From the NCBI GenBank assembly GCA_905479995.1, contig CAJQON010000031.1:1-53902 (forward strand): a DNA stretch of 53,902 nt. Direction: 5' to 3'. Under the pieces are notes generated by a model. It saw nothing but the letters and a program-made list of their open reading frames with translations, did not search any database and was not told the DNA's origin. Position 1 is the first letter of the stretch. Every line of letters starts with the position of its first letter. The stretch comes from an uncultured Flavobacteriales bacterium (lineage in GTDB: Bacteria; Bacteroidota; Bacteroidia; Flavobacteriales_E; Vicingaceae). Below are positions 29,320-32,546 of the stretch, piece after piece. A program made the translations under genes and the position numbers.

Positions 29320-30342
29320 ATGAATGAAAATTTGGATGCAGACAGTGAAAACCTAAACTCAACAGAAAAAGAGTTTGAAAAGGTATTGCGTCCTTTGTCT
29401 TTTGATGACTTTACGGGGCAGGCCAAAGTAGTTGAAAACCTAAGGGTATTTGTTACAGCTGCCGAACAACGAAACGAAGCTTTAGATCATGTTTTATTGC
29501 ATGGCCCACCAGGATTAGGAAAAACTACCTTAGCCAATATTATTGCCAACGAATTAAACGTAGGTTTTAAAGTTACTTCAGGTCCGGTATTAGAAAAGCC
29601 AGGCGATTTAGCTGGACTTTTAACCAACTTAGAATCTGGAGATGTACTTTTTATTGATGAAATACATCGACTATCTTCCGTTGTAGAGGAATACTTGTAT
29701 TCCGCTATGGAAGATTACAAAATTGATATAATGATTGATACTGGCCCAAATGCCAGAAGTGTACAGATAGAATTGAATCCTTTTACATTAATTGGAGCAA
29801 CAACCAGAACTGGGTTGCTTACAGCTCCTTTAAGAGCTCGTTTTGGAATTACATCTCGGTTAGAATATTACGATGCGGCATTATTGTCAACAATCGTAAA
29901 GCGATCGGCCAATATTATTAATGTTGGTATTGATGAAAATGCTGCCGATGAAATTTCGAGAAGAAGTAGAGGTACTCCTCGTATTACCAATTCATTGTTA
30001 AGAAGAGTTAGAGATTTTGCTCAAGTAAAAGGAGATGGAAGAATTGATTTGGAAATTGCGCAATATGGGCTAGATGCATTGAATGTAGATAAGAATGGTT
30101 TGGATGATATGGATAATCGTATTCTTTCGGCTATTATAGATAAATTTAAAGGTGGTCCAGTAGGATTAACAACCATTGCAACTGCTGTTAGTGAACAAGC
30201 TGGAACTATAGAAGAAGTTTACGAACCGTTTTTAATAAAAGAAGGATTTCTTATGCGAACGCCAAGAGGAAGAGAAGCAACTGAAAAAGCCTATCAACAT
30301 CTCGGAAAAGTTAAGGCACCAAACCAAGGCAATTTGTTTTAA
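29320..30342 (+). CDS. ruvB: Holliday junction branch migration ATPase RuvB
   Basis: Hexameric AAA+ motor that drives Holliday junction branch migration with RuvA. The 340 residues show the N-terminal [12 protein letters not shown], Walker [13 protein letters not shown], Walker [10 protein letters not shown], sensor 1 GATTRTGLL, the arginine finger region and the C-terminal winged-helix domain ([29 protein letters not shown], in part: [11 protein letters not shown]). The start matches the family MNENLD form. No ruvA or ruvC is adjacent. Confidence 0.97.
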
Positions 30343-30353
30343 CCTTTCACGCA

Positions 30354-30381
30354 TTGTCATGCTGAGCTTGTCGAAGCATCT
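30354..30381 (+). repeat. Dispersed palindromic repeat, intergenic copy
   Basis: This short element between ruvB and queG contains the core CTGAGCTTGTCGAAG and a stem ATGCT/AGCAT around an 11-base loop. I recognise it as one of the REP-like sequences widespread in Bacteroidota genomes. A second copy lies in ubiX at 31821-31847. Confidence 0.75.
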
Positions 30382-30425
30382 TTTTATTTTGGATAGTAGA
30401 CTTATTATCCCATTACCACGGTAAT

Positions 30426-31370
30426 ATGATCTCAAAAACAACATACACGCAACAAATAAAAACCGAAGCCACACGTTTGGGATTTTCTTTCTGTGGTATA
30501 TCTAAATCTGAATTTTTAGCAGAAGAAGCGCCTCGTTTAGAAAGTTGGTTGAACCAAAACATGCATGGAAAAATGCAGTACATGGAAAATCACTTTGACA
30601 AACGTTTAGATACTACCAAATTGGTAGAAGGTTCCAAATCTGTGATCTCATTGATGTATAATTACTTTCCTGAAAAACAGCAACAAAACGATACCTATAA
30701 AATTTCTAAATACGCTTATGGACAAGATTATCATACAATTATAAAGAACAAGCTAAAAGAGTTTGTTGGGTTTATACACGATGAAATAGGAGAAGTAAAT
30801 GCTGAAATTTATGTCGATTCTGCTCCAGTATTGGATAGAGCTTGGGCAAAAAAAAGTGGCTTAGGTTGGATTGGAAAAAACAGCATGCTCATTAACCCTA
30901 AAAAAGGCTCCTTCTTTTTTTTAGCTGAAATAATATTAGATGTTGAACTCAACTACGACAATGAAATAAAAGATTACTGTGGTTCTTGTACTGCTTGTAT
31001 AGATGCTTGCCCAACAGAGGCAATTCTACCTAATAACGTGGTAGATGGAAGCAAGTGCATCTCTTACTTTACCATAGAGTTAAAAGAGGAGATTATACCC
31101 AAAGAAGTAAAAGGAAATTTTAATGATTGGGTTTTTGGTTGCGATATTTGTCAAGATGTATGTCCTTGGAATCGTTTTTCTCAACCACATAATGAACCAT
31201 TATTTAATCCCAATGAAAAACTATTGAATTTTTCTAAAAACGAATGGACTGATATTACGGAAGAAATTTACCGTGAAATTTTTAAAAAATCTGCTGTAAA
31301 ACGAACTAAGTTTAAAGGCTTAACACGCAATATCAATTTTGTTGCTGACAATCATTCTCCCCAACGGTAA
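30426..31370 (+). CDS. queG: Epoxyqueuosine reductase QueG
   Basis: Cobalamin-dependent iron-sulfur enzyme that reduces epoxyqueuosine to queuosine in tRNA. The 314 residues have the N-terminal domain ([35 protein letters not shown], quoted in part as [11 protein letters not shown] and [12 protein letters not shown]) and two [4Fe-4S] ferredoxin motifs, [12 protein letters not shown] and [11 protein letters not shown]. It lacks the C-terminal HEAT-like extension of the longer E. coli protein, as is common in this phylum. The last 19 bases overlap the convergent ubiX gene. Confidence 0.95.
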
Positions 31371-31927
31371 GAATCATTGTTCAAATCCATTAAATCAATT
31401 ACACGATCAACAACCGTTTTAGCAACTTCCTCTATCGTTTTAGGTTGAGAATAGAATGAAGGAGTTGCAGGGCAAATTATTCCACCAGCTTCAGTAACCG
31501 TTTTCATGTTGTTAATATGAATTAAATTGTAAGGTGTTTCTCTGGCTACCAAAACTAACTTCCTACGTTCCTTTAAAATTACATCTGCAGCACGCGTTAA
31601 TAAATCGTTGGATATTCCATTGGCTATTCTTCCTAAAGTTCCCATAGAACAGGGAATTACCACCATAGTATCGTATTTAGCAGAGCCAGAAGCAAATGGA
31701 GCATAAAAATTATTTTTGTCGTAAAAAGTAAAGTCGTAATCACTGTAATTGGTATTGCCCAATTCATGGTTCCAAACAGTTTTAGCATTATCGCTCATTA
31801 CAACACCAACCTCTATTTTGTTGTCAGCCTGAGCATGTCGAAGGGCTATATGATCCAACAATAATTTGGCATAAATAGAACCAGAGGCACCGGTTACTGC
31901 AACAATTATTTTACGATTCTTTTCCAA
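31352..31927 (-). CDS. ubiX: Flavin prenyltransferase UbiX, with repeat-derived insert
   Basis: FMN prenyltransferase making prenylated FMN, the cofactor of UbiD-type decarboxylases. The 191 residues show the flavin-binding [45 protein letters not shown] and [16 protein letters not shown] motifs. Residues 28-37 ([10 protein letters not shown]) are encoded by a copy of a dispersed palindromic repeat, in frame, between the first strand-helix unit and [10 protein letters not shown]. The loop is variable in the family, so function is probably kept. The start overlaps the end of the upstream barrel gene by 17 bases. Confidence 0.93.
31821..31847 (-). repeat. Dispersed palindromic repeat inside ubiX
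   Basis: On the plus strand the core CTGAGCATGTCGAAG resembles the intergenic copy at 30354-30381; about 20 of 23 bases agree from TTGTCA to GAAG. The flanking stem is AGCC/GGCT instead of ATGCT/AGCAT, so both arms changed together and pairing is kept. On the coding strand it supplies [10 protein letters not shown] of UbiX. Confidence 0.75.
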
Positions 31928-32546
31928 ATTGATAGCGTATTGAAAAGTTAATATCTAAGATATACCAACCTCTATTAAAGGTTTTATTAAGTATTCCTAT
32001 GTTTTGATCCCTGTTTTGGTAATCTCTAAAAGGGAGTAATGAACTTTTTGACCTGATGTTAAATGTTAAGTGCTCATTATAGTTGTAATTAAAACCTATA
32101 AAACCTCCAAAATCAAAACTCTCAATAGGGAATTGTGTAAAAGGTTGGGTGAGTTCTCCAAATTCGTCTTCGTAATGATAACTTAAAAATTTAGCAAGAT
32201 ACAAACCTCCTTCAAACATAAATTGTTTGTGTTTGTAGCGCAATGCAACAGGAATTTCAACGTAATTAAGGTTAAGGTAAAATTTATCGTAATCGCCATC
32301 ACTAGGTTTTGGGTTTTTACGACTGCCTTTATTTATAAAGTATATTTCGAATTGTGTTGACCATTTGTCAGAAAAATCCGTATTGGTAAAGCCCCCTACA
32401 ATAAAACCCATTTTATTGTACCCTCCGTATCCATCGCCCTCTATTTGAGAAGCACTAATCCCTGCCAGTAATCCAGTCTTAAACACTTGAGCAGATACGT
32501 TAAGAGAAGTAGCAAGAATAATTATGGATAAAATAGCTTTGTTCAT
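31911..32546 (-). CDS. PorT-like outer membrane beta-barrel protein
   Basis: A 211-residue exported barrel of the PorT/OMP_b-brl type common in Bacteroidota. It has a signal peptide (about 1-19, cleavage near VSAQ), then GLLAGISASQIEGDGYGGYNKMGFIVGG (in part: AGISASQIEGDGYGG), the EIYFINKGSR strand, NYVEIPVALRYK, and alternating strands to the C-terminal aromatic FSIRYQFG. The YVEIP motif is typical. The exact role is unknown. It lies between the M23 peptidase and ubiX on the same strand. Confidence 0.85.
   Translation of the reverse strand: MNKAILSIIILATSLNVSAQVFKTGLLAGISASQIEGDGYGGYNKMGFIVGGFTNTDFSDKWSTQFEIYFINKGSRKNPKPSDGDYDKFYLNLNYVEIPVALRYKHKQFMFEGGLYLAKFLSYHYEDEFGELTQPFTQFPIESFDFGGFIGFNYNYNEHLTFNIRSKSSLLPFRDYQNRDQNIGILNKTFNRGWYILDINFSIRYQFGKES

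Follow-up and report, generated by a model that had tools for sequence, protein, structure and literature searches.

A dispersed REP-like hairpin element lies in frame within a loop of UbiX in an uncultured Flavobacteriales bacterium

The ubiX copy and its dispersed family

The stretch of DNA analysed here (the window) is a contig of 53 902 nt from an uncultured Flavobacteriales bacterium of the Vicingaceae. Its minus strand carries, at positions 31352–31927, an ORF of 191 aa with a TTG start that encodes the flavin prenyltransferase UbiX, as judged from matches to NCBIfam TIGR00421 (189.8 bits; cut-off 108.9) and NF004685 (195.1 bits; cut-off 188), as well as to UbiX relatives in the PDB. Within this gene, antisense to it on the plus strand at 31821–31847, lies a REP-like element that is in frame and, read on the minus strand, is translated as residues A28–K37. 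It comprises an unpaired tag, TTGTCA (31821–31826, plus strand), a covarying outer pair (k0) with its 5' side at 31828 and its 3' side at 31844, and, enclosed by this pair, the core CTGAGC-A-TGTCGAAG (31829–31843), which has GA in both arms and whose letters formed part of our search pattern. An intergenic copy of the same element, with three outer pairs intact, is located on the plus strand at 30354–30379, and direct reading of the two copies gave 20 equal bases of 26. The preliminary description of this locus was largely right in what it observed, and is in part confirmed: a palindrome copy is present in frame in ubiX with the position and translation it had given, and its resemblance to the intergenic copy, put there at ∼20 of 23 bases, is 20 of 26 by direct reading.

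Considered alone, the window proves little, as its count of the core is not rare: with up to three mismatches to TGAGCATGTCGAAG we found six matches where 2.85 were expected, and 7 of 100 shuffled sequences contained as many. In the 3.1 Mb genome to which the window belongs (G000), the core pattern was found at 22 places (≤ 2 mismatches; one in the reversed control) and the pattern extended by a GTCA tag at 20 (none in the reversed control). At the same threshold of two mismatches the tagged pattern was present in all 14 genomes of the genus, at between 1 and 148 places and with no match to the reversed control in any of them; G002 contained 148, and G001 and G008 one each. Across the class, 28 of 119 sampled genomes contained it with at most one mismatch, again with no control matches, and at many of the places listed for two other Bacteroidia that share the core (G102 and G108) the tag was CGTC. 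When the 22 copies in G000 were fetched by the core alone, TGTCA was kept by 19 to 21 of them at each position (T21 G19 T21 C19). The corresponding counts for 71 distinct copies from 40 regions of G002 were T70 G69 T71 C69, a constancy that, like that of the core, is partly by construction, as the pattern used to find this set specified both tag and core and left only the flanking pairs free. Of the 17 pairs of neighbouring copies lying less than 120 bases apart in these 40 regions, 15 run plus then minus. The element can be described as a dispersed, probably non-autonomous hairpin of about 26 nt, made up of a TGTCA tag followed by Y-x-CTGAGC-N-TGTCGAAG-x'-Y'.

That the family is a real hairpin follows from covariation at one or two outer pairs among the genome copies, as had been anticipated in the preliminary description. 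Strict Watson–Crick pairs were present at k0 in 62 of the 71 G002 copies (27.3 expected) and at the second pair, k1, in 64 (35.4 expected), values that none of 2000 shuffles reached. In G000 the k0 position was paired in 21 of 22 copies (0 of 2000 shuffles), and k1 was without significant covariation (177 of 2000). The third pair in G002 showed no excess (886 of 2000 shuffles), and the same was true of the following pairs, apart from the eighth, where a weak signal was seen (48 of 2000). The first stem position was A in 69 of the 71 copies, 48 of which had an A-T pair there. In single-stranded DNA the GA of the two arms might pair as tandem G.A, and only if both of these positions are counted as pairs does the element have eight stem positions and a loop of five.

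The UbiX loop in near relatives

To place the ubiX copy among its homologues, 94 UbiX loci were aligned, and the loop was parsed in 27 of 30 loci, including all 24 genomes with a ubiX locus in the genus and two neighbouring genera. In 15 of these 24 genomes the segment was of one shortest length, 32 residues, and in none was it one or two residues longer; in the other nine it exceeded this length by 3, 4, 5, 5, 5, 6, 6, 6 and 14 residues. In Pedobacter and other outgroups the loop mostly exceeded the shortest loops of the near relatives by two residues. Six of the nine longer loops contained a recognizable copy of the element (G000, G002, G003, G005, G007 and G043), all in the same orientation and frame and mostly with the same stem letters, and in the remaining three (G009, G011 and G042) the insert could no longer be recognized as the element. 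Alignment with near relatives therefore bears out the suggestion that the ten residues are an insertion: the empty loops are of one shorter length, and the carriers hold the same element. One genome scored as empty, G044, has CGACAAGAC at the site, which is perhaps the scar of a lost copy.

As the UbiX loop sequence varies between species, a variable loop might come to resemble a repeat by chance. Hardly any position of the tag and core departs from the family, however, and the element is present at this very site in six species; the probability that we would assign to a chance resemblance is close to nil, and the copies in the genome together with the relatives rule it out.

In an AlphaFold model of the window UbiX (30 sequences; mean pLDDT 89.2), residues 17–33 form a helix and residues 38–44 a strand, so that the insert is predicted to make up the end of this helix and the turn before the strand, between helix 1 and strand 2. 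This end of UbiX is presumably away from the active site, as in Rossmann-like flavoproteins. In the ubiX copy of G007 (L029) a second palindrome, TTCCGATCCCGATAGCTATCGGGATCGGAA, is nested in frame inside the element, and the same loop with the same nested palindrome was found in L042, a MAG record named Vicingus serpentipes. With at most one mismatch, the centre of TTCCGATCCCGATAGCTATCGGGATCGGAA occurs at 26 places in G007, 10 in G002, 8 in G001, 6 in G004 and one each in G003 and G011, and at none in the other eight genomes of the genus, including G000.

It had also been proposed that the ubiX copy carries a paired stem change, AGCC/GGCT, and that selection acts on its hairpin. In the register of the family, 31828 and 31844 form a C-G pair, 31827 and 31845 a G-G mismatch, and 31826 and 31846 an A-C mismatch, and only k0 differs from the intergenic copy on both sides (G-C to C-G). 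The AGCC/GGCT pairing (31826–31829 with 31844–31847) arises only after a shift of one base, which puts it out of step with the family and rules it out as a compensatory stem; the window copy forms one of its three outer pairs. In a comparison of the ubiX copies that left out G007, three of three outer pairs were formed in G002 and G003, three in G005 with one as G-T, two in G043 and one in the window. Because the window copy and G043 have broken pairs, and because other inserts are no longer recognizable, pairing within ubiX is not reliably maintained; the covariation belongs to the dispersed family and not to the ubiX copy. To judge by the sequences of these loops, copies inside ubiX decay.

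A claim that selection maintains the hairpin inside ubiX, be it as RNA or as DNA, could draw on the covariation among genome copies and on the three outer pairs kept in ubiX by G002 and G003. We nevertheless regard it as very unlikely, given that only one of three outer pairs forms in the window copy and two of three in G043, and that the inserts of three species have decayed beyond recognition. Folding energies point the same way: as single-stranded DNA the ubiX copy folded no better than its shuffles (z 0.14; 107 of 200 as good), nor did the intergenic copy (z −0.13; 86 of 200 as good). None of the four stretches folded, one of which, from G002, missed part of the element, was more stable than shuffled sequence, and as folding energy does not set the copies apart, it is covariation that argues for a hairpin. 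A known RNA family was likewise rejected as the identity of the element, as positions 30000–32500 gave no Rfam match up to an E-value of 1. Selection for the hairpin inside ubiX is therefore not supported.

Copies in other enzymes and the number of insertions

A scan for ORFs with the element in their middle revealed it in further coding genes, as the preliminary description had led us to look for, namely those for chorismate synthase, BioF, SerA, a VitK2_biosynth enzyme and IcmF. For the first four of these, solved homologues in the PDB have gaps of about 4–8 residues at or beside the element. In chorismate synthase of G000 the element is read as CHPEHVEG, opposite such a gap, and in that of G002 as CHPEPVEG, a few codons further on and at a different codon offset; it is absent from the other 28 of 30 aligned rows. 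In G001 (L301), the turn of chorismate synthase that holds the element in G000 and G002 contains seven inserted residues unrelated to it. In BioF (25 rows, one of which ends before the loop) the same loop contains CHPELVEG, in sense orientation, in G000 and FDKLRMT, in antisense orientation, in G002, and opposite orientations in two species mean that these insertions were independent. Other repeats are also seen in this loop: the BioF of G003 (L270) has another palindrome there, containing CCGTCAGCTGACGG, also given as TCCGTCAGCTGACGGA, the motif of which is present twice in the locus, and several relatives (L269–L286) have short internal repeats such as STFNFQLSTFNS, so that repeats of more than one kind seem to accumulate in this loop. 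In G002 the copies in SerA and in the VitK2_biosynth enzyme each lie opposite a gap in solved homologues, and IcmF of the same genome holds an inverted pair of elements, which, being situated between two aligned stretches, is established only as lying inside the frame. The element is thus translated in four frames (PELVE, LSLSK, LRQAQ and FDKLR), and its orientation and frame vary between genes. ORFs in L012, L222, L223, L234 and L235, together with two in L236, also contain it and are not claimed here as insertions. The idea that a repeat moved into a gene and was tolerated as protein sequence is accordingly backed both by the loops of relatives and by the copies in other coding genes.

A yardstick for how often genes are entered was obtained from the 40 regions of G002, where 18 of 78 copies lie in stop-to-stop ORFs of at least 120 aa (ends excluded). 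When ORFs of this length are read from M, 11 of the 78 copies lie within them, whilst such ORFs make up 83 % of the same DNA; the G002 ubiX copy is missing from these 11, probably because of its start codon. As the low genic share comes from regions chosen around copies, it serves as a rough guide only; it fits the removal of most genic insertions.

We then turn to the number of times that ubiX was entered. An rpoB tree was usable for 11 of the 14 genus genomes and weakly resolved, and a tree of 28 ORFs from the ribosomal region was used in its place (20 genomes; quick method; three forks with support of 45 to 74). In the rpoB tree the RpoB of G013 (L183) was an outlier on a long branch, perhaps from a foreign contig in the assembly. 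The ribosomal tree does not include G001, G004, G005 and G011, which had no rplB match, or G024, and the carriers G005 and G011 are consequently not placed on it. For the five placed carriers of recognizable copies it requires five changes, as against one gain and eight losses; when the two placed unrecognizable inserts are added, the figures become seven changes versus one gain and seven losses, a near tie. A tree of ubiX itself, built without the loop, had few well-supported branches and forced at least three changes. On this tree a single clade of the six carriers (p-AU 0.0028) or of all nine (p-AU 0.00015) was rejected, the groups having been chosen after the tree was seen. Spread of a single ubiX allele by transfer is accordingly not the explanation.

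Both the tree and the uniform length of the short loops lead us to favour several gains in ubiX as somewhat likelier than one origin. A less probable but still credible history is that the element entered ubiX only once, long ago, before the three genera diverged, and that its copies were afterwards cleanly deleted on several occasions or decayed. One event would account more easily than five for the shared orientation, frame and similar stem letters of the ubiX copies; the scar-like CGACAAGAC in G044 is in keeping with deletion, and the counts are nearly tied once unrecognizable inserts are included. In disagreement with this, the recognizable copies alone call for one gain and eight losses in place of five gains, and the 15 shortest loops are of one length with none one or two residues longer, such that each deletion would have had to match exactly. 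Moreover, where two species hold a copy in BioF or in chorismate synthase, its orientation or offset is not the same in both, which shows that repeated insertion does occur.

Repeated entry, in turn, raises the possibility that the UbiX loop is a preferred target, in which the mobilizing enzyme recognizes something and uses the same site repeatedly in one orientation. The parsimony count of five gains at one place and in one orientation speaks for this; by eye, however, no sequence is common to the empty sites, and BioF was entered in both orientations, which makes a preferred target improbable in our estimation. We are similarly doubtful of the broader proposition that insertion is directed to loops, whether by their sequence, by exposure on the lagging strand or by an enzyme able to read the site, so that the hairpin family would repeatedly supply core enzymes of this lineage with longer loops. 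The repeated use of the same loops would instead reflect tolerance rather than targeting.

Interpretation and comparison with known repeats

Taken together, we consider it highly probable that the ubiX copy is a hairpin element of the CGTC/TGTC-tagged REP kind that was inserted in frame and is passively tolerated in a loop of UbiX. By this account the element would have entered the turn between helix 1 and strand 2 in a frame free of stop codons and be translated as a spacer, with UbiX presumably still working. Insertion would be largely blind to genes, and purifying selection would leave behind intergenic copies and those in permissive loops. The element probably moves as single-stranded DNA, through the action in trans of an enzyme whose gene does not lie next to any of the copies examined.

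A candidate for such an enzyme is a RAYT (Y1 transposase) of the host. Matches to Y1_Tnp are present in 29 of 46 genomes of the family, and in its hairpin and 5' tetranucleotide the element is similar to the TnpA-REP substrates described in PMC6006769. On the other hand, we found no Y1 transposase in the window's own genome, and none of 30 Y1_Tnp loci (91.6 kb; 30 of 72 matches, three of the 30 being from genomes with at least 30 copies) had the element within about 1.5 kb, so that linkage to a RAYT received no support among these 30. Copy number and Y1 number were uncorrelated in 14 genomes (Spearman 0.05, P = 0.86), and the tag is TGTC and not GT[AG]G. Mobilization by a RAYT hence appears unlikely. 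Since no transposase is linked to such elements in the literature consulted or in the loci examined here, a comparison of copy-rich genomes of the genus (G002, G011 and G007) with copy-poor ones (G001, G008 and G010) offers a route to the mobilizing enzyme, and the contrast of 148 copies with one inside a single genus could expose the gene that moves the element.

Intragenic, in-frame REPs are already known. In the literature searched, the element's own letters had no match, in-frame palindromic REPs in Bacteroidetes were encountered only in PMC3733652, and intragenic palindromic REP elements in flavobacteria were not encountered. What is new here is the count of gain against loss at one loop, the presence of opposite orientations in one loop of one enzyme, the repeated occupation of three enzyme loops and the nesting of a second palindrome family. 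In this Bacteroidia lineage, core enzymes carry a REP-like hairpin and the relatives are near enough for gain to be weighed against loss; with two palindrome families stacked in one gene and opposite orientations in one loop, this constitutes a natural test of where in proteins insertions are tolerated.

Among known repeats, Rickettsia palindromic elements (RPEs) share the property of being palindromic and in frame in unrelated genes (PMC10969869; PMC3733652). As described in PMC10969869, however, RPEs are about 150 bp long with a conserved encoded peptide, whereas the present element, at about 26 nt, is far shorter and occurs in four reading frames. PMC3733652 equates the CGTC-1 and CGTC-4 REPs of R. 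conorii with RPE-6 and RPE-4, so that some RPEs would be of the same short kind. The GTAG REPs associated with RAYTs (PMC2817692; PMC6006769) are similar in being short imperfect hairpins with a 5' tetranucleotide, often in inverted pairs; they differ in that the tag here is TGTCA, not GT[AG]G, and in that no RAYT was flanked by the element in the 30 loci.

The closest counterpart is the CGTC-tagged REPs (Di Nocera, De Gregorio and Rocco 2013, PMC3733652). As that paper describes them, the tag is often TGTC or CCTC, the stem of 8–9 bp starts with A-T, the loop is of 4–5 bases, a 3-base tail is mostly CCA and head-to-head dimers predominate; such REPs are found in Bacteroidetes, sometimes inside genes, and have no dedicated transposase. 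Its authors propose loops and linkers as the places that intragenic copies occupy, and report REPs at about the same recB site in two Xanthomonas species as well as double insertions in single ORFs. Our element resembles these REPs, as there portrayed, in its unpaired CGTC/TGTC tag on one side only, which the G000 copies display, in its genic copies and occurrence in Bacteroidetes, in the absence of an associated transposase as judged from Y1_Tnp loci (0 of 30), and perhaps in a stem starting with A-T, a loop of about five and frequent dimers. It is unlike the REPs so described in its lack of a CCA-like tail, there being no consensus downstream of the stem in the 71 G002 copies, and in the two non-standard G.A positions of its stem. 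The element agrees with the description of the CGTC-tagged REPs in all but the CCA tail, and we therefore regard it as a variant working in the way that they do rather than as an established member of one of their four families.
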